Shown piece by piece: positions 11,333 to 60,830 of a stretch of 64,000 nucleotides of DNA. The position numbers and the translations under genes are program-made. Each line of letters starts with the position of its first letter. The first letter of the stretch is position 1. The stretch covers positions 361,007 through 425,006 of the forward strand of contig NZ_RJVB01000004.1 of assembly GCF_003751505.1 (NCBI RefSeq). The letters are read 5' to 3'. The notes below the pieces were generated by a model. It did no database searches, was not told where the DNA came from, and saw only the letters and a program-made list of their open reading frames with translations. Source of the stretch: Erwinia sp. JUb26 (GTDB taxonomy: Bacteria > Pseudomonadota > Gammaproteobacteria > Enterobacterales > Enterobacteriaceae).

Positions 11333-12478
11333 TCACTCAACCAGGGTAACCCAGTTAGCGCCTTTGCCGGTCGGGTAGCGGCCAAGCAGCGTCAGCGCGC
11401 CGGTGGACGGGGTGATGGCATACAGCGACAGCTGCTCCGATTTCTGCCCGGACTCAATCAGGAAACGGCCGCTGTTATCAATGGCAAAGCCGCGCGGCTG
11501 GGCTTCGGTTTTGATGCTTTGCAGCCGGGTGAGATGGCCATCAATGGCATCGACCGAGAACGAGGTCAGGGTACTGCTGGTGCGCTCGGTCGAATAAAGG
11601 AAGCGTCCATCCGGGGTCAGATGGATATCGGCCTGCCAGATGCGCGGCTTGTGCGACGGCGGCAGATCGTCATCGCCGGTCAGCGGCCGGGCTTCGCCGC
11701 GCTGCATATCCTCATCCGGTGAGATGGACGACACATCCTCGTGGGCCGTGGCGCGACCTGCGTCGTCCAGGGTGACGCGGGTGATATTGCCCGCCATCTC
11801 GTTCAGGATGTACATATTGCGCTGGCCCTGCCTGTCGCGCAGTGGGGCGATAACAAAGTGTCTCGGTCCGGTGGCCGCCTCGTGCTGGATATTAATAAAC
11901 GGCGGATCGAGCGGCGTGACCTTCCCGGTTGCGCCGTCAAAGCGGTACTGCAACAGCTGGTCGGTGCCGAGCTGGGTGACGTACAGATGACGGTTTTCCG
12001 CATCCACCTGCACTGCATGGGCGCGCTTGCCGGTGTGCACTACCTGCACCGGCTTCTCCACCACGCTGCCCGCGCTGTCGATCGCGTTGATGCTGAACAG
12101 ATCGCCGCCGAACGACGCGCTGAGCAGGTAGCGCCCCTGTCTGTCGGTAGACAGATAAGCCATGCTCTCCGGCAGCGGGGTCTCGCTGGCTTTCAGCAGC
12201 GTGCCGTCGGGCTGGATGCGGTAAGCCACCACGCGATAGGGTTTGCTGCGCACCGAGACGTACAGCATTTTCTTATCCGGCGAGACGACGGACGACATCG
12301 CTTTCTCCCCCGCGGGGAAGGTGCCTGTTGGTTCGAGCGCCGGTTTGGTTTTATCCAGCTTATAGCCGGTGACCGTGCCGCTCGCGGCGTTGGACACATA
12401 CACCAGGCTCTGCGCCTGGGCGCTGGCTGCGGCGCAGGAGAAGGCCAACAGCATGGCTGCATACAAAGGTTTGTTCAT
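11333..12478 (-). CDS. Exported lactonase-like seven-bladed beta-propeller
   Basis: A 381-residue protein with an N-terminal signal peptide (cleavage near 'ASAQAQ', about residue 23). The repeats ('LVYVSNAASGTVTGYKLD', 'KMLYVSVRS', 'RHLYVTQLG', 'RFLYSTERTSST') are those of the YkgB/Pgl 6-phosphogluconolactonase-like family (lactonase propeller), which hydrolyses lactones of sugar acids. Export suggests an unphosphorylated lactone in the periplasm rather than 6-phosphogluconolactone. It lies between otnC and the cupin gene in an operon controlled by LacI-type boxes, so a role in opening a lactone before uptake by the MFS carrier is a reasonable inference. Confidence 0.75.
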   Translation of the reverse strand: MNKPLYAAMLLAFSCAAASAQAQSLVYVSNAASGTVTGYKLDKTKPALEPTGTFPAGEKAMSSVVSPDKKMLYVSVRSKPYRVVAYRIQPDGTLLKASETPLPESMAYLSTDRQGRYLLSASFGGDLFSINAIDSAGSVVEKPVQVVHTGKRAHAVQVDAENRHLYVTQLGTDQLLQYRFDGATGKVTPLDPPFINIQHEAATGPRHFVIAPLRDRQGQRNMYILNEMAGNITRVTLDDAGRATAHEDVSSISPDEDMQRGEARPLTGDDDLPPSHKPRIWQADIHLTPDGRFLYSTERTSSTLTSFSVDAIDGHLTRLQSIKTEAQPRGFAIDNSGRFLIESGQKSEQLSLYAITPSTGALTLLGRYPTGKGANWVTLVE

Positions 12479-48672: not shown

Positions 48673-49974
48673 CTATTTCAACTCGTCAATCCGTGGTGAT
48701 AGCTGCGCCATCAGCAGCGCCGCAGCCGCCAGCAGGCGCCGGTCCTCCCCGGCCGCAAACTGAAACTCCATCCCCACCGGAATACCGTCAGGCGTCTGCC
48801 CAAGCGGCAGGCTGATGCACGGCAGGCCGACCACCGTGGCCGGTTCGCAGTTGGCGATCAGCTGGCGGAACAGCGCATTGGCCTGCTCAATCAATGGCGG
48901 CAACAGTGGCACCGTCGGAAACACCAGTCCGTCTAAGCGATGCTGCTGAAATACGGCCTTATAGCGGTCAATCAGCAGCGGTTTCCAGCGGCTGAGTGCC
49001 TCCTGATAGCGTTCGGGACCGATGGTTGCCGCATCCGCCACCAGCGCGCGCACGTCGGGGCTGGCGATGGCGTTTTTCAGCTGCTCAAAACTGTAGCGGC
49101 TGCCGCGCTGCTGCAGATAGCGCGGCAGGTCGCGCAGCAGCTCAAACGAGGCCATCGGGTATCCCGCCTGCACCGCCAGCTCCCCGGCCTGTTCAATGTC
49201 CACCTCAACCAGCGTGATGCCGAGATCGCCTAACCGGTGCAGCACCACCTCCGCTGCCGCTGCGACGGGCGGTTCGCAGTCGTGCCAGAAATGCGCGCGG
49301 GGTACGCCCAGCCGCAGATCGGCCAGCGAAACGGCGGGCAGGGTGGCGTCACCGCTGATGACGGCATCCAGCGCCAGCACGTCGTCCATGCGCTGAGCGA
49401 TAATCCCGGCGGTGTCCCGGCTGGGGGAAATGGGGGCGATCCCCTGTTGCGGATAGCGCGCGAGCGAAGGGCGAAAGCCAATCAGCCCGCAGAACGAGGC
49501 CGGAAGCCGCACGGAAGCGCCGGTGTCGGTGCCGATGCTGGCCGGAACAATCCCGGCCGCCACGGCGGCGGCGCTGCCGCTGGAAGAACCGCCTACCACG
49601 CGGCCCGGCAGGAAGGGATGCAGCACATCCCCCCGGGCGGCGTTCAGCCCGCTGGTGCCGGACGCCAGTTCGTGCATGCTGGCCTTACCGATAATAATCG
49701 CCCCTGCGTTCTGCAAACGCGTCACCAGCTCCGCGCTGTGGCTGACCGGTTCCTCCGCCAGCAGCGCGGTGCCGATGCTGGTCGGCATCCCGGCGACATC
49801 GATATTGTCTTTCACCACCAGCGGGAAACCGGCGAGCGGGGCGCTCGTCCCGTCGACGCCTGCCGCCGCTGCTGCCAGCGCCGGTTCCGCAGCCAGCCAG
49901 CTCAGGCTGTTCAGGTGGCGCTGCTTAAATGCCTGTAGCAGCGCCTGATGCAGTCGTTCGCCGGAAGCGGCCAT
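48673..49974 (-). CDS. Amidase-signature family hydrolase
   Basis: A 433-residue amidase. The Ser-cisSer-Lys triad is intact: Lys55 in 'PLVVKDNIDV', cis-Ser131 in 'GGSSSGSA' and nucleophile Ser154 in 'TDTGASVRLP'. The family includes Asp/Glu-tRNA amidotransferase subunit A, indoleacetamide hydrolase and many small amidases; with no GatB/C partner and a catabolic operon around it, a small-molecule amidase is likely. It is the last gene of the seven-gene minus-strand operon running from 54935, separated from the dioxygenase gene by 3 bp. Confidence 0.85.
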   Translation of the reverse strand: MAASGERLHQALLQAFKQRHLNSLSWLAAEPALAAAAAGVDGTSAPLAGFPLVVKDNIDVAGMPTSIGTALLAEEPVSHSAELVTRLQNAGAIIIGKASMHELASGTSGLNAARGDVLHPFLPGRVVGGSSSGSAAAVAAGIVPASIGTDTGASVRLPASFCGLIGFRPSLARYPQQGIAPISPSRDTAGIIAQRMDDVLALDAVISGDATLPAVSLADLRLGVPRAHFWHDCEPPVAAAAEVVLHRLGDLGITLVEVDIEQAGELAVQAGYPMASFELLRDLPRYLQQRGSRYSFEQLKNAIASPDVRALVADAATIGPERYQEALSRWKPLLIDRYKAVFQQHRLDGLVFPTVPLLPPLIEQANALFRQLIANCEPATVVGLPCISLPLGQTPDGIPVGMEFQFAAGEDRRLLAAAALLMAQLSPRIDELK

Positions 49975-49977
49975 GGC

Positions 49978-50832
49978 TTACACCAGCGCCTGCGGGCGTT
50001 CGCTGCCCTTCACCGTCGCGCGATGCATCACGCGGCGGTAGGCCACATCGTCATACGGCGTGGCCTGGTGCATGGTGCAGCGGTTGTCCCAGATCAGCAA
50101 ATCGTGCGCCTGCCACTTGTGGCGATAAACAAACTGCTCGCTGACGGCGTGCGCATTCAGCCGAGCCAGCAGCGCTTCACTCTCTTCCGGCGACAGGCCT
50201 ACGATCTCTTTCACGATATCCTGGCCAACAAACAGCGACGGACGGCCGGTTTCCTGATGACGACGCACCAGCGGATGGGTGACGTCCGGGGTGGCGGCTT
50301 TCTGCACCTCGGTCAGCGGTTCACGATCGGCGAAGGCTTTGGCGTAGTAGGTGGAGTAGGAGTGCACCGCGCTCAGCGGCTGGATCAGGCGTTGAGTTTC
50401 TTCATCCAGCGCGTCATAGGCAGCAAACATCGAGGAAAACAGCGTATCCGCGCCAAACGGCGGTACTTCCACCGCGTGCAGCACCGAGCCGAAGCAGGGC
50501 ACATCGTAGTAGGACCAGTCAGAGTGCCAGTTCCAGCCCTCCTTATGGTTGCCAATCGCCTTACCGTCCTGCTTAACGTTGGACAGCACGTACAGCTCGG
50601 GATACGGCGTGGTCAGATACTGGCTCAGCACGTGAACCTGCAGCTCGCCGAACTCGCGGGCAAAGGCTACGTGCTGCGACTCGCTGACCGGCTGCTGGCG
50701 CAGCAGCAGCACCGAGTGGGTGTTCAGCGCATCGCGCAGGGCGGCAAAGGTCGCAGCATCGATCGGCTGGGTGGCATCAACGTTCAGCACTTCCATGCCG
50801 ATATGTTCGGTTAGCGGACGAAGTTCTAACAT
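49978..50832 (-). CDS. TauD/TfdA-family 2-oxoglutarate-dependent dioxygenase
   Basis: A 284-residue Fe(II)/2-oxoglutarate dioxygenase. The Fe triad is His103-x-Asp105 ('WHSDWSY') and His255 ('MHQATPY'), with Arg267/Arg271 in 'RRVMHRATV' for 2-oxoglutarate. The family hydroxylates taurine, 2,4-D, sulfate esters, gamma-butyrobetaine and others, often cutting a C-S, C-O or C-N bond. I start it at the ATG at 50832 with GGAG upstream; the longer frame begins within that ribosome binding site. It lies between the class II aldolase and amidase genes in the NMT1-type transporter operon. The substrate is unknown. Confidence 0.88.
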   Translation of the reverse strand: MLELRPLTEHIGMEVLNVDATQPIDAATFAALRDALNTHSVLLLRQQPVSESQHVAFAREFGELQVHVLSQYLTTPYPELYVLSNVKQDGKAIGNHKEGWNWHSDWSYYDVPCFGSVLHAVEVPPFGADTLFSSMFAAYDALDEETQRLIQPLSAVHSYSTYYAKAFADREPLTEVQKAATPDVTHPLVRRHQETGRPSLFVGQDIVKEIVGLSPEESEALLARLNAHAVSEQFVYRHKWQAHDLLIWDNRCTMHQATPYDDVAYRRVMHRATVKGSERPQALV

Positions 50833-50850
50833 GACTAATCTCCTCAAGCG

Positions 50851-51588
50851 TTACTGACGATAGCTGGGGTCAAGGTTGTCCAGCAGACGGATAAAGGCGG
50901 GCCACTCGCGTTCACCACGCAGGCGGATATCCCCTTCACATTGATTAAACTGGCGTGCGGCCTTCTCCGAAACGGCCTCCGGCGGCAGCAGCAACTGGCT
51001 ACCGCTGCCCTGCGCCATCAGCTGAATGCGCGCGGCGCGTTCGAAGTAGTAAGCGAGCATAAAGGCTTCGGGAATGGTGCGGCCGGCGGCGAGAATGCCG
51101 TGATTGCGCAGCACCATTACCTGATGCGGTCCGAGGTCGCGCACCAGCCGCGCGCGCTCATCGGTATCCAGCGCCACGCCCTCATAGGCGTGATAGCCAA
51201 GGCGGTTCCAGAAGTGCATGGCAAACTGGCTGACCGGCTGTAAACCCTCTTCGAGCGCCGAGACGGCGGTGGCCGCATCGGAATGGGTGTGCAGCACGCA
51301 GATGGCATCTTCACGCGCCGCGTGGATCGCGCTGTGGATAACGAACCCGGCGCGGTTTACCTCATAGTCACTTGGTTCCAGCGCGTTGCCGTCCAGATCG
51401 ATCTTGATCAGGCTGGAGGCGGTCACCTCCGAGAAAAACAGCCCGTAGGGGTTGATCAGAAAATGGTGTTCCGGCCCCGGCAGGCGCACGGAAATATGGT
51501 TATAAATCAGATCGTCCATCTTGAAATGCGCGATTAGCCGGTAGCAGGCGGCAAGCTGTACGCGGAGCTGCTGTTCAGATTGATTCAT
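50851..51588 (-). CDS. Class II aldolase/adducin-family protein
   Basis: A 245-residue protein with the fuculose-aldolase fold. 'DLIYNHISVRLPG' and the metal site 'CVLHTHSDAA' (His-x-His) plus the late His in 'MVLRNHGILAAG' are present. Members cleave or decarboxylate phosphorylated or free hydroxy-oxo compounds; long members of this subgroup sit in catabolic operons of unknown substrate. I start at the ATG at 51588. It follows the permease gene by 2 bp, so it belongs to the transporter operon. Confidence 0.82.
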   Translation of the reverse strand: MNQSEQQLRVQLAACYRLIAHFKMDDLIYNHISVRLPGPEHHFLINPYGLFFSEVTASSLIKIDLDGNALEPSDYEVNRAGFVIHSAIHAAREDAICVLHTHSDAATAVSALEEGLQPVSQFAMHFWNRLGYHAYEGVALDTDERARLVRDLGPHQVMVLRNHGILAAGRTIPEAFMLAYYFERAARIQLMAQGSGSQLLLPPEAVSEKAARQFNQCEGDIRLRGEREWPAFIRLLDNLDPSYRQ

Positions 51589-51590
51589 GA

Positions 51591-52328
51591 TTATTTCCAC
51601 CAGATAAAGGTTGTGTCGATCCAGGCCAGCAGGCCGTAGAGTGCGATACTGACCAGAGAAGAAACGACGACGGCAGCCCAGACGGTCAGCAGATCCACCT
51701 GCTGGGTGGACTGGAAAATGGTCCAGCCGATGCCCTGATACGCGCCGAGCATTTCGGCGACAATCGCCACGATAATGCTGCGTACCAGCCCCACGCGCAG
51801 GCCGCTGACGATATTCGGCAGCGCGGCGGGCAGTTGCAGTTTGCGCATAATAGTGAGGCGGCTGGCACCGAAGCTGCGCATCAGATTAATCATCTGTAGG
51901 TCGGCCTGTTTCAGGCCGTGCAGGCTGTTGACCAGAATGACAAAGCTGACGGCGAGGACGACCAGCACGATTTTGGACATGGCCCCCATGCCAAACCAGA
52001 TCAGCGCCAGCGGGATCCAGGCCACGGTCGGCACCGAGTTAATCGCCACCGCCAGCGGCATCAGAATCGCCTCCAGCGGCCGAAAAATCGTCATCAGCAT
52101 GGCCAGCAGCAACCCGGCCAGCAGGCCAATCGCGAAGCCGCTCAGCGCCTCCACCAGCGTCCAGCCCATTGACACCCACAGGCTGCTCCCACTGCTGATA
52201 ATTGCCAGCACGATGCTGTGCAGCGACGGCAGCACAAACGGCTGAATGTTAAACAGCCAGATGCTGCCTTCCCACAGCACAATCAGGCTGAGTACGCCGA
52301 AGAACGGCGGCAGAAGTTTGCGTATCAC
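51591..52328 (-). CDS. NMT1/TauT-type ABC importer permease A
   Basis: A 245-residue permease of the SsuC/TauC/ThiX group. The EAA loop 'ADLQMINLMRSFGASRLTIMRKLQLPAALP' and 'IVAIVAEMLGAYQGIGWTI' are typical. The start is the GTG at 52328, with GGGGGAA before it; the upstream part of the open frame overlaps the other permease out of frame. It is paired with permease B, implying a heterodimer rather than the usual homodimer of this family. Confidence 0.85.
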   Translation of the reverse strand: MIRKLLPPFFGVLSLIVLWEGSIWLFNIQPFVLPSLHSIVLAIISSGSSLWVSMGWTLVEALSGFAIGLLAGLLLAMLMTIFRPLEAILMPLAVAINSVPTVAWIPLALIWFGMGAMSKIVLVVLAVSFVILVNSLHGLKQADLQMINLMRSFGASRLTIMRKLQLPAALPNIVSGLRVGLVRSIIVAIVAEMLGAYQGIGWTIFQSTQQVDLLTVWAAVVVSSLVSIALYGLLAWIDTTFIWWK

Positions 52329-52330
52329 GG

Positions 52331-53077
52331 TTATTTCCCCCACCAGGCCAGTTTTCTCTCCAGCCGCTCCACCACGCCATACAGCAGCGCGCCGGTCAGC
52401 CCGCAGATCACGATCAGCGTCCACATCCTCACCACGTCTTCGTTGTACATCGACTGGATCAGCAGCACGCCCAGGCCGATCGTGTCACCGAACCACTCGC
52501 CAACAATCGCGCCGACCAGGCTGAGGGAAATGCCCAGCTTCAGCGCCACAAAAATCGACGGAGCGGCGGCAGGGAAGTGCAGTACCAGAAAACGCTTCAG
52601 GCCGCTGGCACCGAAGCTGCGCAGCAGGCTGATATGCAGCGGGTCCACCATCTCCATCCCGCGCTTGGTGTTCAGCGTGACCGGCAAAAACGTCAGGTAG
52701 AAGGCGATCATCACCTTGGCAAACAGCGTGTTGCCGAACCAGATCACCACCAGCGCGCCAAAGGCAATCACCGGCACGGTCTGCGAGATAACAAACAGCG
52801 GAAACCAGGCGCGATCGATCCAGCTGACGTAGAAAAACAGGATGCCGCAGGCCACGCCAAACGCGGTGCCCAGCGCAAAGCCCAGCAGCGTTTCCAGCCC
52901 GGTGCGTCCGGTGCTGGCCAGCAGCAGATCGGCGTTTTCCCGGATATCTGCCACCACCATCGGCACCGACGGCAGATAGCGTGGGCTGATGGCAAACAGC
53001 GTGACGCTTCCCTGCCAGAACAGCAGCACCAGCAACACCGCGACCACCAGGGGATGGGTCAGAAGGCGTTTGATCAT
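52331..53077 (-). CDS. NMT1/TauT-type ABC importer permease B
   Basis: A 248-residue permease of the same family, with 'HISLLRSFGASGLKRFLVLHFPAAAP' as EAA loop and 'SLVGAIVGEWFGDTIGLGVLLIQSMYN' near the end. It overlaps the ATPase stop by 4 bp and is 2 bp from permease A. The two permeases share the fold but differ widely in sequence, so they are not a recent duplication. Confidence 0.87.
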   Translation of the reverse strand: MIKRLLTHPLVVAVLLVLLFWQGSVTLFAISPRYLPSVPMVVADIRENADLLLASTGRTGLETLLGFALGTAFGVACGILFFYVSWIDRAWFPLFVISQTVPVIAFGALVVIWFGNTLFAKVMIAFYLTFLPVTLNTKRGMEMVDPLHISLLRSFGASGLKRFLVLHFPAAAPSIFVALKLGISLSLVGAIVGEWFGDTIGLGVLLIQSMYNEDVVRMWTLIVICGLTGALLYGVVERLERKLAWWGK

Positions 53078-53904
53078 GACTGTTCCTCATGCTCGGTGAA
53101 GCGAAACGACTTCATGCTCTCTTCTTCGATGGCTTCCAGCAGACGTTTCTTGATGGCGATAAATTCGGCGGAGGTCAGCATATCCGGGGTGCGCGGGCGA
53201 GGTAGATCGATCTGCTCAACACATTTGATGGTGCCGGGGCGCGCGCTCATCACCACTACTTTGCTGCCGAGGAAGATCGCCTCATCGATGTCGTGGGTGA
53301 TAAACAGCACGGTGCGGCGATGCTTCTCCCACAGCTTCAGCAGCCAGCGCTGCATCAGCGCGCGGGTCAGCGCATCCAGCGCGCCGAACGGCTCATCCAG
53401 CAGCATTAAATCGCGCTCGAACAGGAAGGTGCGCATTAGGGCCACGCGCTGGCGCATCCCGCCCGAGAGCTGATGCGGATAGCTCTGCTCAAAGCCGCTG
53501 AGACCAAAGCTGGGGAACAGCCCCTCGGCGCGTTTGCGGGCCTCTTTACGCGGTACGCCTTCGCACTCCAGCGCCAGAATGGCGTTGTCCATAATGGTGC
53601 GCCACGGCAGCAGCAGGTCGCGCTGCGGCATAAACGATACTTTGCCAAGCAGTTCGCCATCCCGCTGAGACTGGCCTTTAAACAGGATCGCCCCGTCGCT
53701 GTCCGGGTCGAGCAGCCCGGCGATCATGTTGAACAGGGTTGATTTGCCGCAGCCGGAAGGGCCAACCAGCGTGACAAACTCACCCTCATTGACGATCAGG
53801 TTGACGCCGGAGACGGCGATGACCTGTTGCTGCCCATCGCCAAAGCGTTTCCATAAATTATCCAGCTGCAGCAGGGGCAGATGTTTTTTTGGTGCAATGG
53901 TCAT
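53074..53904 (-). CDS. NMT1/TauT-type ABC importer ATPase (SsuB/TauB-like)
   Basis: A 276-residue ATPase: Walker A 'GPSGCGKST' (about 46-54), Q-loop 'VSFMPQRDLLLPW', signature 'LSGGMRQRVALMRTFL', Walker B 'LMLLDEPFGALD' and switch His 'FITHDI'. The C-terminal 'PRPRTPDMLTSAEFIAIKKRLLEAI' segment is common in nitrate/taurine/thiamine-precursor transporters. It energises the importer encoded by 51591-54935. Confidence 0.9.
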   Translation of the reverse strand: MTIAPKKHLPLLQLDNLWKRFGDGQQQVIAVSGVNLIVNEGEFVTLVGPSGCGKSTLFNMIAGLLDPDSDGAILFKGQSQRDGELLGKVSFMPQRDLLLPWRTIMDNAILALECEGVPRKEARKRAEGLFPSFGLSGFEQSYPHQLSGGMRQRVALMRTFLFERDLMLLDEPFGALDALTRALMQRWLLKLWEKHRRTVLFITHDIDEAIFLGSKVVVMSARPGTIKCVEQIDLPRPRTPDMLTSAEFIAIKKRLLEAIEEESMKSFRFTEHEEQS

Positions 53905-53924
53905 CAGGCTTCTCCGCGCGGTGA

Positions 53925-54935
53925 TCAGTTAAGGGTTTTGTACTGCGTCGGGACGTTATTCCAGAAGCTAAGGTCGAAGGTCTGGTTGACGTCCACCGGC
54001 TGTTTCAGCGCGCCGTACTCCACCAGCAGCTTCATCATCTTCTCGGCTTTAGGCATATCGACGTTGCCCAGCCCCGGCGATCCCGGCGGGTACATCAGCG
54101 AGGCGACGGAGTCGAGCATCGCCACCTGATGTTTTCGGTCGAGGCTTGGGTTGGTTTTCATCAGAATATCAATGGTTTCTTCGCGGTGGGTGAGGGCGTA
54201 TTGCCAGCCTTCCAACGTGGCGTTAACGAAGGCCTGCACCTGCTGTGGCTTTTTTTCCACCATCGATTTTGAGGTGATCAGCGCGTCCTGCTGGGTGGTC
54301 ACCCCGACGTCATCGGGTGAAATCAGCTTGAGGTTGGTGACGCCTTTCTCTTTCAGCGTGTTGTATTCGTTATAGAGGGTGACGGTGGCAACATCGACCT
54401 GCTTATCGATAAACGGGTTGAGCGACACAGACTGTGGCAGCAGGGTGATATCCTCTTTCTTCAGGCCTGCCGCACCCAGCGATGCCAGCAGCGGATACTG
54501 CACGCCGGTAAACCACACCGAGACTTTTTTGCCTTTAAAATCTTTAAAGCTGTTGATGCCGGAATCCGCATAGGTAACAAAGACGAACGGCGTGCGCTGC
54601 TGGGACATCGCCAGCGCGACAATCGGCAGACCTTTTTCCCGCGCCGCCAGCACGCTCTCCATGCCGCCCGCCAGGCCGAAGGTATCGGCACCCGACGCCA
54701 CTAAGGTTTCCACGTTGATATTCGGGCCGCCGGGATTGATGGTAACGTCCAGCCCCTGCTGCGCGTAAAAGCCTTTTTCTTTGGCGACGTAAAAACCGGC
54801 AAACTGCGCCTGCGCCAGCCATTTCAGGCGCACAGAGACTTTCTCCTGAGCGGCCTGCGCGGCGCCAGCAAGCAGCGCGGTACAGAGCAATCCAGTCAGA
54901 CAACGACGGGCGAACTGCGAGGTAAGTCCTGACAT
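53925..54935 (-). CDS. NMT1/ThiY-like periplasmic binding protein
   Basis: A 336-residue solute-binding protein with a signal peptide ending 'LAGAAQA' (about residue 26). 'VRLKWLAQAQFAGFYVAKEKGFYAQQGLDVTINPGGPNINVETLVASGADTFGL' is the NMT1/THI5-like domain seen in binding proteins for pyrimidine thiamine precursors, riboflavin and related heterocycles. I start at the ATG at 54935 with GAGG upstream; the extra codons of the longer frame lack family similarity and overlap the promoter. It is the first gene of the seven-gene operon. A GntR box lies 56 bp upstream. Confidence 0.88.
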   Translation of the reverse strand: MSGLTSQFARRCLTGLLCTALLAGAAQAAQEKVSVRLKWLAQAQFAGFYVAKEKGFYAQQGLDVTINPGGPNINVETLVASGADTFGLAGGMESVLAAREKGLPIVALAMSQQRTPFVFVTYADSGINSFKDFKGKKVSVWFTGVQYPLLASLGAAGLKKEDITLLPQSVSLNPFIDKQVDVATVTLYNEYNTLKEKGVTNLKLISPDDVGVTTQQDALITSKSMVEKKPQQVQAFVNATLEGWQYALTHREETIDILMKTNPSLDRKHQVAMLDSVASLMYPPGSPGLGNVDMPKAEKMMKLLVEYGALKQPVDVNQTFDLSFWNNVPTQYKTLN

Positions 54936-54990
54936 GTGAGCATCCTCTGGTTTCGGGTTCAACATTCGGGTGGTAATGAAAAATCGCGTT

Positions 54991-55000
54991 ATGTATACAT
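54991..55000. promoter_or_regulatory. GntR operator box upstream of the ABC operon
   Basis: ATGTATACAT, a perfect 10-bp palindrome that matches the box pairs at 55124-55154 and 55887-55917. It lies 56 bp upstream of the binding-protein start. Confidence 0.7.
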
Positions 55001-55123
55001 CACGGCGCTGTTTTAATGTCTTTGCTGCCATTCATGACTTGCAGGATGTGTGCCAGTTTCAATAAAGGTCATTGACCCGCGCAAGAAATCAGCGACAATA
55101 CGCACTATAAAGCGGTGAAGGCG

Positions 55124-55154
55124 ATGTATACCTGTTTATTGAAAAGGTATGCAA
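55124..55154. promoter_or_regulatory. Paired GntR operators upstream of the gntR gene
   Basis: ATGTATACCT (55124-55133) and AGGTATGCAA (55145-55154), offset 21 bp (two helical turns), 40 bp upstream of the repressor start. The pair forms an inverted repeat TGTATACC-N13-GGTATGCA. Confidence 0.78.
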
Positions 55155-55193
55155 ATGGATCGTAACAGTGCAACCTGACGAGCAAACAGCACC

Positions 55194-55871
55194 ATGAGTG
55201 AGCAAAAAAACCTCTCCCGCCTGACGGGAACCTCGCTGGCGGACGGCCTGAAGCAGACGCTGGAAAAAGAGATCGCCAGCGGCGCGCTGGAGCCGGGTAA
55301 GCGACTGGACGAAAAGGAAATTGGCGCGCGATTTGGCGTTTCGCGCACCCCGGTACGCGAGGCGTTTCGCCTGCTGGCGGCCGACGGGCTGGTGGATCTC
55401 AACGGCCGTCAGGGCGTGATGGTGCGCGCCCTGAGCATGAATAAGCTGCTGGAAATGTTTCAGGTAATGGCCGAGCTGGAAGGGCTGTGCGCGCGGCTGG
55501 CGGCGCGGCGTATCTCGCCGGACCAGTTGGCCACGCTGCGCCAGATCCAGCAGCAGATGGCGGATCGCGGCCCGTCCATTTCGCCGGAAGCCTTCTATGA
55601 AATGAATCTCAGCTTCCATGAAGGGATCTATGCCTTTGCCCGTAATGCGTTTTTAGCCGAAGAGACGCGCGCGCTGCGCAACCGCGTGGGTGTATATCGC
55701 CGCCGGGTGACCTTCCATCCGGGGCGGGTCAATAAAACTCTCGAGGAGCACGGTGCGATCCTTGAGGCGATCGCCCGTAACGACGCCGATGCCGCGCACG
55801 ACGCGATGCGCAAGCACCTGACCCTGCTGGGCGATGACCTGGTCGATTTTATCGCGGGCTTCAGCAAATAA
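55194..55871 (+). CDS. GntR-family (FadR/FCD subfamily) repressor
   Basis: A 225-residue regulator. The winged helix 'DEKEIGARFGVSRTPVREAFRLLAADGLVDLNGRQGVMV' spans about 42-80; the C-terminal FCD helical domain has metal-ligand-type positions in 'YEMNLSFHEGIYAFARN' and the late His in 'AHDAMRKHL'. The FCD group binds organic acids or related small molecules. It lies between two divergent catabolic operons, and five copies of an ATGTATAC-type box occur only in the three local promoter regions. It should repress itself and both operons. The ligand is unknown. Confidence 0.92.
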   Translation: MSEQKNLSRLTGTSLADGLKQTLEKEIASGALEPGKRLDEKEIGARFGVSRTPVREAFRLLAADGLVDLNGRQGVMVRALSMNKLLEMFQVMAELEGLCARLAARRISPDQLATLRQIQQQMADRGPSISPEAFYEMNLSFHEGIYAFARNAFLAEETRALRNRVGVYRRRVTFHPGRVNKTLEEHGAILEAIARNDADAAHDAMRKHLTLLGDDLVDFIAGFSK

Positions 55872-55886
55872 ACATTTTTGCCTTTC

Positions 55887-55917
55887 TGGTATGCAAATTG
55901 CTTTGCTATGTATACCT
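55887..55917. promoter_or_regulatory. Paired GntR operators upstream of the SDR operon
   Basis: TGGTATGCAA (55887-55896) and ATGTATACCT (55908-55917), again offset by 21 bp but in the opposite order to the pair at 55124. They fill the 63-bp gap before the SDR start, so the SDR operon should have its own repressed promoter. Confidence 0.78.
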
Positions 55918-55934
55918 AAACTGGAGGGCACCAA

Positions 55935-56717
55935 ATGAATCTCAATCTGAACGGCAAGAGCGCGTTGATTACCGGCGCATCAAAAGGCATCGGCGAAGCG
56001 ACGGCGCGCGTACTGGCCGCCGAAGGCTGTACGCTACACCTGGCGGCACGTAACGGCGCGGCAATGCGCGATCTGCAACAGGCGCTGATTGCCGAATATG
56101 GCGTCAGCGTTTCGGTGTATGAAAAAGACCTCAGCTCCACGGCGGCGATGGAGTCGCTGGCGGCCGAAGTCGGCGCGATTGATATTCTGATCAACAATGC
56201 GGGCGACATTCCGGCCGGATCGCTGGAGGTGGTTGGCGACCGCGAGTGGCGCGCCGGGTTCGATCTGAAAGTTTTCGGCTATATCTCCCTCTGCCGTCTT
56301 TACTACCCACAAATGAAAGCGGCCAAAAGCGGCGTGATCGTCAACGTGATCGGCAACTCCGGTGAAAACTGGGATGCCAGCTATATAGCCGGCAGCACCG
56401 GCAACGCCGCGCTGATGTCGTTTACTAAAGCGCTGGGCGGCCGCAGCCTGGATGACGGCATCCGGGTGATCGGCATCAACCCCGGCCCGGTCGCCACCGA
56501 CCGCATGCTGAAAATTATGAAGCGTAAAGCAATCGATATGCTGGGCGACGAGTCGCGCTGGGAAGAGTTGTTCGCGCTCTATCCGGGCCAGCGCCCGGCC
56601 ACCTCGGAAGAGGTCGCGGATTTAGTGGCCTTTATGTCTTCCGGGCGCGCGGGCTACATCAGCGGCACCAACATTACTATCGACGGCGGCATTGCTGCGC
56701 GTGGATCCGTCATTTAA
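55935..56717 (+). CDS. SDR-family protein without the canonical YxxxK motif
   Basis: A 260-residue SDR. The cofactor motif TGASKGIG (13-20), 'NNAG' (87-90) and C-terminal 'SGTNITIDGG' are normal. The active-site region reads 'YIAGSTGNAALMSFTKAL' (150-167): aligning the 'AAL' segment with the usual 'YxASKAAL' puts Gly153 and Asn157 at the Tyr and Lys positions, with Tyr150 three residues early. So it may use another mechanism, or the loop may be shifted. I recall similar 'AGSxGNAAL' SDRs in other proteobacteria, so this is probably a conserved subgroup rather than a mutation. It is first in the plus-strand operon; GGAGG precedes the ATG. Confidence 0.85.
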   Translation: MNLNLNGKSALITGASKGIGEATARVLAAEGCTLHLAARNGAAMRDLQQALIAEYGVSVSVYEKDLSSTAAMESLAAEVGAIDILINNAGDIPAGSLEVVGDREWRAGFDLKVFGYISLCRLYYPQMKAAKSGVIVNVIGNSGENWDASYIAGSTGNAALMSFTKALGGRSLDDGIRVIGINPGPVATDRMLKIMKRKAIDMLGDESRWEELFALYPGQRPATSEEVADLVAFMSSGRAGYISGTNITIDGGIAARGSVI

Positions 56718-56730
56718 CCGGGAGCGCAGC

Positions 56731-57864
56731 ATGTCAGATATCTATACGCGTAATGCCTGGTTCGATCGGCTGTTTGCCACCGAAGGGCTGATCTGGATGG
56801 GGCAGAACACCAACCATCTGCCGCCGCATCCGGACGTGCTGGCCGCACTGCATAATTCGGTGGCCGCTACCGAGTTTAGTGCCTATGCGCCGCCGCTGGG
56901 GTTTGAGTCACTGCGCAGCGCCATTGTCGCCGACATTGGGGTTCCCGGCGTGACGGCAATGGTCACCGACGGTGGGGTGAATGCCCTGGCGACGCTGTGC
57001 CGCGCCCGCTGCCGCCCCGGCACCACCTTTGTTACCACCGATCCCAGCTGGAAATGGCCCTGCCAGTTCGCCGAGCAGATGGGATCCGAGGTTATTCAGA
57101 TCCCGATCTGGAACCCCGACTGCCACTATCGCCTGACTCCGGACGCACTGGCGGCAGCGGTGGACGACAGCACCGCGCTGATCTATCTCGTCGACCCGAA
57201 TAACCCGCTGGGCATTCACTACAGCCGGGAAGAGCTGCAGGCATTTATCGATATCGCCCGCCGCCACGGTGCGCTGCTGATCCACGACTGCACCTACCGC
57301 GACTTTGCCCCGGAGCACGTGGCCGCACTGGGGCTGGACAGTGAACAGGTGGTGATGTCCGTGAGCTTTTCAAAATGGCTGGGGCTGGCGGGCCTGCGGG
57401 TCGGCGCGCTGGTGGCCGCGCCGGCGCTGCTGGCCGAACTGGCCCCGTACAACGGCGGCGTGCTGGGGGCCAGCGTTCCGGCGCAGCGCGCGGCGGAAGC
57501 GGGTTTAAAAGTGAAGGCGGAATGGATGACCACTCTGCTGGCGGCGGACAAACGCAATAAAGCACGCATTGCCGAGGCGGTCAGCGCCGTGCCGGGGTTG
57601 TCGCTGCCGGTCTACCCCTCCGGCGGTAATTTCCTGGTGATTGATGTCACCGGTGCCGGTATTCGTCCCGAAGCGCTGGTGGAGTGCTATCTGCAACAGG
57701 GCATTCAGATCCGCCACGGCGGCTATCACACCACCACCTTTGGCGATCGCTTTATCAAAGTCAGCACCACGGTTCCGGCTGAATGGGCGGAGAAATTCGC
57801 CGCTCTGCTGCCGGAAATGGTGGCGCAGGCCGCACAGCTGCAGCAGTTCCGCCAACCATTCTGA
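56731..57864 (+). CDS. PLP-dependent aminotransferase, class I/II
   Basis: A 377-residue fold type I aminotransferase. The PLP Lys is Lys215 in 'SVSFSKWLGLAGLRVGAL'; Asn158 ('DPNNPLG'), Asp186 and Tyr189 ('HDCTYRDF') are the expected PLP contacts, and the substrate-carboxylate Arg is near the C-terminus ('IKVSTTV' region lacks the usual 'RIS' Arg, so this contact is uncertain). I start at the ATG at 56731, preceded by GGGAG; the longer frame overlaps the SDR gene. It lies between the SDR and the alpha/beta hydrolase genes in one operon. Confidence 0.86.
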   Translation: MSDIYTRNAWFDRLFATEGLIWMGQNTNHLPPHPDVLAALHNSVAATEFSAYAPPLGFESLRSAIVADIGVPGVTAMVTDGGVNALATLCRARCRPGTTFVTTDPSWKWPCQFAEQMGSEVIQIPIWNPDCHYRLTPDALAAAVDDSTALIYLVDPNNPLGIHYSREELQAFIDIARRHGALLIHDCTYRDFAPEHVAALGLDSEQVVMSVSFSKWLGLAGLRVGALVAAPALLAELAPYNGGVLGASVPAQRAAEAGLKVKAEWMTTLLAADKRNKARIAEAVSAVPGLSLPVYPSGGNFLVIDVTGAGIRPEALVECYLQQGIQIRHGGYHTTTFGDRFIKVSTTVPAEWAEKFAALLPEMVAQAAQLQQFRQPF

Positions 57865-57874
57865 GGAGCGAACC

Positions 57875-58753
57875 ATGTTTATTACCACCAACGATCGGGT
57901 TCAGCTGTGGGTTGAAACCAGCGGGGAAGGCATCCCGATCCTGTTTATCCATGAATTTGGCGGCAGTTTTGACAGCTGGCAGCCGCAGGTCCATGCCTTC
58001 AGCCGCCGCTATCAGTGCATCACCTATGCGGCACGCGGCTATCCGCCTTCGTCGGTGCCGCAGGATCTGGAAGCGTACTCCCAGCAGCGGGCGGTGGAGG
58101 ATGCGCTGGCCGTGCTGGACGGGCTGGGCATTGAAAAGGCGCATATCGTCGGGTTATCGATGGGGGGATTTGCCGCACTGCATTTTGGCCTCAATGCGCC
58201 CGAGCGCGCGCTGTCGCTGACCGTGGCCGGAGCAGGCTACGGCTGCGAGCCGGAAACCGAAGCGTATTTCCGCCAGGTTTCGCTGCAGGTAGGCGAAAAC
58301 TTCGCCCGCCAGGGGGCAAAACAGTTTGCGCCGACCTATGCGCTGGGGGCCAGCCGCGTGCAGTTCCAGAACAAAGATCCGCGCGGCTGGCAGCGCTTTG
58401 CCGATCGGCTGGCGGAACACGACTCGCTGGGAGCCTCGCTGACCATGCGCGGCGTGCAGGCGCGTCGCCCGGCGTTCTACCAGCTGGAAGCGCAGATCAA
58501 GGCGCTGATGCTGCCGGTGCTGATTATGGTCGGTGACGAGGACGATCACTGTCTGCAACCCGGCCTGTACCTGAAAAAACACCTGCCTGCCGCCGGGCTG
58601 GCGATCCTGCCGAAAACCGGCCACACCCTGAATCTGGAAGAGCCGCAGCTGTTTAACCAGCTGCTGGCGGAGTTTTTCGCGCAGGTTGAGGCGGGGAAAT
58701 GGGGCGTGCGCGACCCGCGTGCTAATCCGGCGCAGATAATGCGCACCGACTGA
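57875..58753 (+). CDS. Alpha/beta-fold hydrolase
   Basis: A 292-residue hydrolase. Nucleophile Ser95 in 'VGLSMGGFAA', a likely catalytic Asp in 'MVGDEDDHC' and His in 'KTGHTLNLEEP' form the triad; the oxyanion segment is 'IHEFGGSFDSW'. The shape is that of ester, enol-lactone or C-C bond hydrolases such as PcaD/MhpC-like enzymes. GAGGAG precedes the ATG at 57875, and it follows the aminotransferase gene by 10 bp. The substrate is unknown. Confidence 0.86.
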   Translation: MFITTNDRVQLWVETSGEGIPILFIHEFGGSFDSWQPQVHAFSRRYQCITYAARGYPPSSVPQDLEAYSQQRAVEDALAVLDGLGIEKAHIVGLSMGGFAALHFGLNAPERALSLTVAGAGYGCEPETEAYFRQVSLQVGENFARQGAKQFAPTYALGASRVQFQNKDPRGWQRFADRLAEHDSLGASLTMRGVQARRPAFYQLEAQIKALMLPVLIMVGDEDDHCLQPGLYLKKHLPAAGLAILPKTGHTLNLEEPQLFNQLLAEFFAQVEAGKWGVRDPRANPAQIMRTD

Positions 58754-58760
58754 GGGTGAA

Positions 58761-59987
58761 ATGATGAAAATTAACGGTGAGCGGCTCTGGCAGCGGCTGA
58801 TGCGGATGTCACAGGTGGGGGCCATTGCCGGTGACGGCGTCAATCGTCAGGCGCTCAGTGCGGAAGAAGCGGAGAGCTTGCGGCTGATGATTGACTGGGC
58901 GCAGGCCAGCGATCTGGAGGCCCGTTGCGATATGGCGGGGAATCTGTTCGTTATCCTCTCCGGTACCGATCGCGCGGCCGCGCCACTGCTGCTGGGCAGC
59001 CATCTCGACAGCCAGCCCACCGGTGGCCGCTTTGACGGCGTTTACGGCGTGCTGGCGGCGCTGGAAGTGCTGACGGTGTTTCGCGAATGCGGCCTTCAGC
59101 CCGCCTGCGATGTCGTGGCGGTATCGTGGATGAATGAAGAAGGATCGCGGTTTGCACCGGGGATGATGGGATCGTCGCTGTTCGCCGGCGCGCGCGCGCT
59201 GATGGCGATGCGCGCCGTGACCGACGAGGCGGGCTGCTCCGTCGGCCAGGCGCTGGATGAACTCCACCGGGCGGTGCCGCTGGATATCTACGCCTGCCCC
59301 CATCCCCCGCTCGCCTATCTGGAGGCGCATATTGAGCAGGCGACACAGCTGGAACGGGCGGAGGCCACCATCGGTGTGGTGAGCGGCATTCAGGGCAAGG
59401 TGACCTGGCAGGTGACGCTGCATGGCGAGCGCGGCCATGCGGGCACGGTGCCGATGGCGCAGCGGCGCGACGTGCTGCGCTGCTTCAGCGGCATCGCGCA
59501 GCGGCTTTACGACAAGGTGGGCGCGGCCGATCCGGCGGTGATGCTGACGATAGGACGGATTGAAATGCAGCCCAACGCGCCGTCGGTGATCCCGGACCGT
59601 CTGACCTTCCGCATCGATCTGCGCCACCCCGACGCTGTGCGGTTAACGGCGCTGACGGCGACAGCAGAGCGGCTGATGAGCGAGATGGCGTCACCCTGTG
59701 ACATTGAATTCACCCGCCTGAGCGAAGCCGCGCCCAACGCCTTTTCCCCCGAACTCCAGCAGGCGATTGCGCAATCTGCCAGCGAACGCGGCTATCCGGC
59801 GCTTTCTTTGCTTTCCGCTGCCGGCCACGACGCGCGCTATCTGGCGGCAATCTGCCCCTCGGCGATGATCTTTATTCCCTGCCGCGCGGGCATCAGCCAT
59901 GCGCCGGAAGAGTGGGCAGCGCCCGAGGCGGTCAGCGCGGGCGCTCAGGTGCTGCTGGACGTGGCGCGCCGCTGGTCAGGGCTGTAG
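58761..59987 (+). CDS. M20-family Zn amidohydrolase (N-carbamoyl-amino acid hydrolase/AllC-like)
   Basis: A 408-residue dinuclear metal amidohydrolase. Ligands are visible in 'LLGSHLDSQPTGGRFDG' (His81, Asp92), 'SWMNEEGSRF' (Glu126/127), 'EAHIEQ' (His near 191) and 'AGHDARYLA' near the C-terminus. 'HGERGHAGTVPM' marks the dimerisation domain. This subgroup hydrolyses N-carbamoyl-L-amino acids, ureidopropionate or allantoate, releasing ammonia and CO2 or an amine. It starts 7 bp after the hydrolase and overlaps the convergent LysR gene by 12 bp. In the local pathway it may perform the final C-N cleavage (inference). Confidence 0.88.
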   Translation: MMKINGERLWQRLMRMSQVGAIAGDGVNRQALSAEEAESLRLMIDWAQASDLEARCDMAGNLFVILSGTDRAAAPLLLGSHLDSQPTGGRFDGVYGVLAALEVLTVFRECGLQPACDVVAVSWMNEEGSRFAPGMMGSSLFAGARALMAMRAVTDEAGCSVGQALDELHRAVPLDIYACPHPPLAYLEAHIEQATQLERAEATIGVVSGIQGKVTWQVTLHGERGHAGTVPMAQRRDVLRCFSGIAQRLYDKVGAADPAVMLTIGRIEMQPNAPSVIPDRLTFRIDLRHPDAVRLTALTATAERLMSEMASPCDIEFTRLSEAAPNAFSPELQQAIAQSASERGYPALSLLSAAGHDARYLAAICPSAMIFIPCRAGISHAPEEWAAPEAVSAGAQVLLDVARRWSGL

Positions 59988-60830
59988 CATTTCGGTCATC
60001 GCGTTTAAATTGGCTGCGCGTGTGCCCTTGCGCCACACCAGCCAGATTTCAATATTGCCCATCCCGCCACCCAGCGGCCAGGCCTGCACGCTGTCGCGCC
60101 CCGGCATACTCTCCAGCATGCTGGCCGGGATCAGCGCCAGCCCCGCGCCCGCGCTGACGCAGGCCAGAATGCCGTGATAGGACTCCATTTCGAAAATCTT
60201 GCCAGGCACGGCGTTTTCCCGCGCGAACCAGTTTTCAAACAGCCGCCGGTAGGAGCAGTTGGCGCGGAAGGCATAAATCGTTGAGCCGGAAATGCTGGCG
60301 GCATCCGGCACCGGCGGATGATTCAGCGCGCCGATTAGCACCAGCTCCTCGCTGAAGGCCGGTACGCCCTCCAGCTGCGGGTGCTTAGGCGGCCCGTCGA
60401 CAAACGCCGCGCTGTAGCGGCCTGAGAAAATCCCGTCAATCATATCGCCGGAGGGGCCGGTGGAGAGGTCCAGCTCCACCTGCGGCCACTGCTGATGGTA
60501 GCGGGCAATCAGCGGCGGCAGGCGCACGGCGGCGGTACTTTCAATCGCCCCGAGGGTGAAGACGCCGCTGGGATGCTGCCCGGATACGCTCAGCTTCGCC
60601 TCTTCGGCCAGCGCCAGAATGCGCCGTGCGTAGTCCAGCAGCGTGCGGCCGCTGTCGGTGATATGCAGCCGCAGTTTTTCCCGGCGGAACAGTTCGCAGC
60701 CCAGCTCCTCTTCCAGCTGGCGCAGGCGGGTAGAGATATTCGACGGCACGCGGTGCAGTCGGTCGGCGGCGGCGGTGACGCTGCCCTCTTCGGCAATCGC
60801 ACGGAAGACATCCAGCTGGGTCAGATCCAT
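59976..60830 (-). CDS. LysR-family transcriptional regulator (PtrR-like)
   Basis: A 284-residue LysR regulator. The winged helix is at about 1-60 ('LDVFRAIAEEGSVTAAADRLHRVPSNISTRLRQLEEELG'), of the subgroup with 'HRVPSNISTR' seen in PtrR/YneJ, the regulator next to sad in E. coli. The effector domain follows. It is divergent from the Sad-like dehydrogenase gene with a perfect 9-bp dyad between them, which mirrors the E. coli yneJ-sad arrangement. Confidence 0.9.
   Translation of the reverse strand: MDLTQLDVFRAIAEEGSVTAAADRLHRVPSNISTRLRQLEEELGCELFRREKLRLHITDSGRTLLDYARRILALAEEAKLSVSGQHPSGVFTLGAIESTAAVRLPPLIARYHQQWPQVELDLSTGPSGDMIDGIFSGRYSAAFVDGPPKHPQLEGVPAFSEELVLIGALNHPPVPDAASISGSTIYAFRANCSYRRLFENWFARENAVPGKIFEMESYHGILACVSAGAGLALIPASMLESMPGRDSVQAWPLGGGMGNIEIWLVWRKGTRAANLNAMTEMLQP

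Follow-up and report, generated by a model that had tools for sequence, protein, structure and literature searches.

In Comamonas testosteroni, the GntR-family protein AphS represses phenol genes that are driven by AphR, an activator of the NtrC type that acts with sigma54 (PMC3063778, PMC6449761). The aphS gene usually lies in an operon with its activator gene and one AphS site is located around a putative IHF site (PMC3063778, PMC6449761), while the AphS motif is a 14-nt palindrome, AAATmTCGAkATTT (PMC6449761). A second system, NanR of Escherichia coli, involves several GntR-type dimers that bind cooperatively on repeated short sites (PMC8012715).

We analyzed a locus within a window of 64,000 nucleotides (i.e., the whole stretch of DNA under study). 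The locus resembles AphS/AphR in that a GntR-family repressor would counteract sigma54-type activation of a catabolic operon, but differs in that the boxes here lie on a -24 element and a predicted transcription start, and in that no activator gene resides beside gntR. It resembles NanR in that several dimers of a GntR-type repressor are predicted to bind repeated short sites; however, the NanR operator is a (GGTATA)3 repeat, whereas the boxes here are near-palindromic and set at a fixed 21-bp offset. The combination of GntR and sigma54 has precedent in AphS/AphR, and an operator that shares the -24 element was found in no report of the open-licence PMC literature, with some of the searches narrowly worded. 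From the arrangement of the sequence elements we consider it likely that an autoregulated FCD-type GntR repressor controls the two flanking sigma54 operons of a catabolic locus as well as gntR itself, competing with the holoenzyme at one of the promoters.

The GntR regulator and its boxes

The protein encoded beside the boxes had been taken for a GntR regulator in an earlier note on this DNA, and the Pfam scan bore this out, recovering an N-terminal winged-helix GntR domain (PF00392, 1.4e-17, 63.5 bits against a cut-off of 27) and a C-terminal FCD ligand domain (PF07729, 9.6e-32, 110.5 bits against a cut-off of 24.3; Table 1). Membership in TIGR03338 (phnR_burk), the best NCBIfam model (E 1.1e-42), was rejected, as the protein scored 146 bits where the model's cut-off is 271.5. 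Among the matches listed, none of the neighbors of gntR exceeded the cut-off of a phosphonate model.

Table 1. Genes, promoters and boxes of the locus, with positions counted from the first letter of the window.
Feature	Position	Strand	Remarks
Amidase	48673..49974	-	In 7/80 loci
TauD-type dioxygenase	49978..50838	-	In 16/80 loci
Class II aldolase-type protein	50851..51591	-	
Second ABC permease	51591..52424	-	Start codon uncertain
ABC permease	52331..53077	-	
ABC transporter ATPase	53074..53904	-	
NMT1/THI5-like substrate-binding protein	53925..54935	-	First gene after P1; Pfam 4e-56
GntR box 1, ATGTATACAT	54991-55000	.	~+30 to +39 of predicted transport-operon start
P1, predicted sigma54 promoter, TGGCACACATCCTGCA	55040..55055	-	Transport/aldolase/TauD/amidase operon; predicted start near 55029
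P2, sigma70-like gntR promoter, TTGACC-N16-GACAAT	55072..55099	+	Mostly conserved in enterobacterial alignment
GntR box 2, ATGTATACCT	55124-55133	+	Pair 1, between predicted gntR promoter and gntR
GntR box 3, AGGTATGCAA	55145-55154	+	Pair 1, offset 21 bp relative to box 2
Candidate NtrC-like site, AGCACCATGAGTGAGCA	55188..55204	.	Weak; 140 bp upstream of P1
gntR, FCD-type (FadR subfamily) GntR regulator	55194..55871	+	225 aa; Pfam
P3, predicted sigma54 promoter, TGGTATGCAAATTGCT (GG-N10-GC)	55887..55902	+	SDR operon; predicted start near 55913
GntR box 4, TGGTATGCAA	55887-55896	+	Pair 2, includes -24 element of P3
GntR box 5, ATGTATACCT	55908-55917	+	Pair 2, ~-5 to +5 of predicted P3 start
Short-chain dehydrogenase (SDR)	55935..56717	+	First gene after P3
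PLP-dependent aminotransferase	56734..57864	+	
Alpha/beta hydrolase	57875..58753	+	
M20 hydantoinase/carbamoylase-family amidase	58761..59987	+	TIGR01879 over cut-off

The five boxes that the note had listed were read directly from the sequence at the positions it gave, and the 21-bp offset it had described was true of both pairs, leaving 13 bp between the 8-bp cores and 11 bp between the 10-bp boxes. To judge by their letters, the 10-bp boxes are near-palindromic, with a KGYATRCM core. The loose motif given in the note is weak by itself: its 14 matches in the window are a mild excess over the shuffled mean of 7.97, and 2 of 100 shuffles reached as many. An ortholog-derived matrix, which took in one close relative (L007), exposed five sites scoring at least 13.0, all in two intergenic stretches and none elsewhere in the window; shuffles of the two stretches (n=2000) gave a mean of 0.073 sites, a maximum of 2, and none with a 21-bp pair. 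A second matrix was derived without any Enterobacterales, from 77 boxes in 30 loci of other bacteria. With it, the five boxes again took the five highest scores in the window (13.6 to 15.2), ahead of a site at position 12457 in sixth place with 13.1. The clustering of the boxes is not due to chance.

The box at 54991 was supported as a GntR box, scoring 15.2 with the matrix that left out Enterobacterales, and its placement was refined: a predicted sigma54 start is situated ~30-40 bp upstream of it, and it is without a good partner at 21 bp, the best match at that distance in this genome being 5/8. It showed no variation in four of four aligned enterobacterial loci, where its flanks vary. In this alignment, box 1, pair 1, P1, and most of the sigma70-like gntR promoter formed invariant blocks, with box 3 reading AGGTATGCAA in all four loci and its last bases gapped by the aligner.

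Relatives of the GntR protein numbered 121 in genome contigs, and analyses were performed on the best 80 of the 121. These came from Pantoea, Pseudomonas, Halomonadaceae, Acetobacteraceae, Methylobacterium, Bradyrhizobium, Xanthobacter, Bordetella, Achromobacter, and others; 33 of the 80 belonged to Bradyrhizobium, so that counts across the loci are not independent. Plasmid records matching the protein numbered 2353, every one below 60% identity. Representative sets of 38, 34, 32, 28, and 30 loci, some of which count the window as one, were hand-picked with at most a few loci per genus, and of these the 34 were used for the NtrC search, the 32 for matrix spacing, and the 30 for the box matrix.

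The boxes proved to be one motif, as had been claimed, and to be conserved around orthologs of gntR. Specifically, the density of exact boxes near gntR was 21 times that of the remaining sequence of the 80 loci, and exact pairs near gntR with spacings of 9-60 were at 21 bp in 33 of 36 cases (from 30 loci), the others being at 43 (two) and 17 (one). Pairs made of an exact box and a one-mismatch box were at 21 bp in 58 cases in the 80 loci, and any other spacing occurred at most three times. Moreover, the best spacing according to the matrix was 21 upstream of gntR in 16 of the 32 representatives and downstream of it in 20, and this spacing recurred in alpha-, beta-, and gammaproteobacterial loci. 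A distance of 21 bp, two helical turns, would fit two dimers on one face of the DNA, and box orientation varied within pairs, which would suit symmetric boxes bound by dimers. It is very probable that the local GntR-type repressor does bind at the paired boxes. That they are instead bound by another regulator, such as the adjacent LysR protein, is highly improbable: a LysR gene is indeed present in the window (59976-60830), and in L009, too, the operon is followed by a gene of the LysR family, but the window's LysR protein had a match in 0 of 80 loci at E 1e-20, while the boxes accompany gntR even in distant loci, are placed around it, and have a GTATAC core that fits the general form of GntR operators.

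In the 5.37-Mb genome, the paired pattern KGTATRC-N14-KGTATRC matched twice, both times at the locus, and its reversed control gave 0 matches; uniqueness of the pair is claimed for this genome only. A single box is not distinctive genome-wide, with WTGTATACMW having 23 strand matches against 17 for the reversed control, in 15 distinct places of which three were at the locus. The proposal that the boxes define a regulon is thus retained for the local locus and dropped beyond it, since the offset-21 pair occurs nowhere else in the genome. Across 32 carrier genomes, the looser pair KGYATRCM-N13-KGYATRCM matched at 22 places within the locus, spread over 19 genomes, and at nine places outside the locus in six of the 32 (one each for L007, L057, and L076, two each for L014, L077, and L081), with the reversed control matching 2 of the 32.

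We also noted three TTGTATACAA boxes within 2 kb (C7:16285, 17000, and 18283) in the region G000:C7:15500-19500 (L109). These surround another GntR-like gene and a hydantoin/Asp-Glu racemase-like gene (named by eye), with the third box inside the racemase-like ORF, and perhaps mark another local regulon of a GntR protein, whose box would be related to the one described here.

Predicted sigma54 promoters on both sides of gntR

Sigma54 promoters follow the consensus GG-N10-GC, comprising the -24 and -12 elements, and initiate 12 bp after the GC. P3 was the sole match to the strict form of this pattern (TGGYAY with TTGC) in the 64-kb window, and P1 has CTGC where the strict pattern has TTGC. The genome encodes sigma54 (PF04552, 2.9e-71). 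Genome-wide, the strict pattern was hardly enriched, with 27 matches against 17 for the reversed pattern, and because this is near background the case rests on conservation and position.

In the 80 loci, TGGYAY-N6-TGC on the expected strand and side identified P3 in 60, P1 in 68, and both in 54. The 64,000 positions of the two zones contained 128 matches and the other 2.2 million strand-positions contained 34, so that the pattern is ~130-fold enriched where it is expected over the remainder of the loci. This density, on the right strands, is difficult to reconcile with plain sigma70-type repressor/operator control, under which the likeness to sigma54 promoters would be a matter of chance. Although most GntR regulons use sigma70 promoters, and chance alone makes the sigma54 pattern common in this genome, we regard that explanation as very unlikely.

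By the same pattern, 20 of the 80 loci had no P3 and 12 had no P1. The SDR gene was directly downstream of gntR in 64 loci, 59 of which had P3; those lacking it by pattern despite this gene order were L041, L049, L068, L069, and L076. In Bordetella ansorpii and Achromobacter loci without P3 (L070, L071, L073, L078, L082), the SDR gene was divergent from gntR. Most loci having the pre-SDR region carried it in the form TGGTATGCAA-ATTGCT-N5-box, that is, GG-N10-GC with TGGTATG and TTGC, and in nine aligned gammaproteobacterial sequences the -24 element, the -12 element, and the second box held 19 of 22 invariant columns.

In the case of P2, the predicted sigma70-like promoter of gntR, the pattern is weak alone, with one match found against 0.5 expected from shuffles. 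The NtrC-like candidate overlaps the gntR start codon, and ~3% of random 190-bp locus stretches score as well. An NtrC-like site was not found upstream of P3 in the 34 loci searched, nor was a gene for an NtrC-type activator found beside gntR, the scanned window proteins being enzymes, transporter parts, and LysR. The pattern GCAC-N7-GAGC was also present near the gntR start in L008, L009, L012, and L014, at 126-191 bp from P1. Additionally, the region upstream of gntR in L013, L015, L019, L020, L030, and L072 contained the transport-side promoter and then, beginning at ~+15 to +20 of the predicted start, a degenerate 21-bp box pair with TTATACA in its second box. Degenerate pairs with this spacing were seen in several alphaproteobacterial P1 regions.

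The -24 element of P3 as half of a box pair

The TGGTATGCAA sequence at 55887 was supported as a GntR box, but it is not a GntR box alone, as it also forms the -24 element of P3. At all 60 of the 60 P3 promoters the -24 core fitted the GntR box at 8/8 positions, a fit that is partly built in because the sigma54 and GntR patterns share TGGYA. The sigma54 pattern has no bearing on the second box, which, 21 bp past the P3 core, fitted at 8/8 positions in 22 promoters and at 7/8 in 38. P1 provided an internal control: its core fitted the GntR box at 8/8 in 7 of 68 promoters, and a box of at least 7/8 fit was found 21 bp on in 0 of the 68. The sites themselves were often the same, with 45 of the 60 P3 sites being one identical 16-mer, found in no paper of the open-licence PMC literature, and 33 of the 68 P1 sites another.

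We weighed these results against a reading in which TGGTATGCAA at 55887 is the -24 element only, GntR occupies a single start-site box, and the 21 bp simply reflect the distance from -24 to start. This distance is fixed in sigma54 promoters and TGGYATG fits a -24 element; yet, the 21-bp spacing is also found upstream of gntR without overlap with a sigma54 element, at pair 1 and in Bordetella, Achromobacter, Tardiphaga, and Pseudolabrys. A promoter nearly identical to P3 does exist without the box: TGGTACGCAAATTGCT, a sigma54-like promoter at G000:C6:41055-41070 (L108:1556-1571), is one base from P3, has the same CAAA spacer, and lacks a GntR box 21 bp on; by eye, the gene that it precedes was named as FAD-dependent monooxygenase-like. 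However, the bases after TGGYAYR would drift if they belonged to a -24 element only, and the GCA past the core is fixed at P3 and free at P1 of the same loci (2.0, 2.0, and 1.7 bits at P3 versus 0.6, 0.5, and 0.1 bits at P1 in the 17 loci with both). The single-box reading is accordingly judged unlikely, if less so than the alternatives considered above.

On balance, we lean toward a dual-coded promoter at P3, in which the -24 element would also be half of a paired GntR operator, repressor and sigma54 holoenzyme would be mutually exclusive, and the layout would have been kept with the operon in alpha- and gammaproteobacteria. The composite pattern had one match in each of 21 of the 32 chosen carrier genomes, every time within the retrieved locus, and its reversed control had 0 matches; because the pattern came from loci that were themselves searched afterward, this result bears on specificity and not on discovery. 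The overlap is kept in distantly related bacteria, which suggests that the repressor may directly block the sigma54 polymerase.

Catabolic setting and proposed control

The four SDR-side enzymes were all present within 7 kb in 72 of the 80 loci, as were the aldolase in 71 and the NMT1 protein in 65 (tblastn). The M20 protein matched many carbamoylases, and the aminotransferase had no PDB relative at E 1e-30. A gene set of this kind with an assigned substrate was not found in the open-licence PMC literature with one narrowly worded search. In loci from Pseudomonas and Halomonadaceae, a cupin-domain protein of ~310 aa was encoded after the M20 gene (L008:11846-12769, L009:11830-12759, L010:11884-12819), and this protein may hint at the substrate. 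At E 1e-30 the GntR protein was found in 2 of the 78 genomes searched, one of which was the window's own; the regulator is rare there, yet present in distant proteobacteria with similar genes, such that the locus (48673-59987) has the look of a catabolic module that is either mobile or often lost.

The locus probably serves a nitrogen compound. The GntR protein is not a sigma54 activator, and boxes at these places would therefore predict repression; GntR binding, the number of dimers, and repression are what we infer from the layout. In the proposed scheme, GntR would sit on its boxes, usually two at the fixed spacing, as two dimers on the same DNA face. At the SDR operon, repressor on the -24 element and the start would keep sigma54 holoenzyme off or prevent the promoter from melting; at the transport operon, box 1, just downstream of the P1 start, would act as a roadblock; and at gntR, pair 1 behind the sigma70-like promoter would bring about autorepression. 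Transcription would then need inducer on the repressor as well as a sigma54 enhancer-binding protein in its active state, which may be NtrC when nitrogen is limiting.

A dedicated pathway repressor on the elements of a sigma54 promoter would be unexpected, as such promoters are usually regarded as silent until an enhancer-binding protein acts. If the proposal is true, expression would follow an AND gate, with the substrate present and the sigma54 activator active, perhaps under nitrogen limitation, and the locus would offer a clean system in which to study how a repressor competes with the sigma54 closed complex. The enzymes encoded after P3 form a widespread set, and the 21-bp pair over its promoter provides a precise motif for tracing this control in other genomes.
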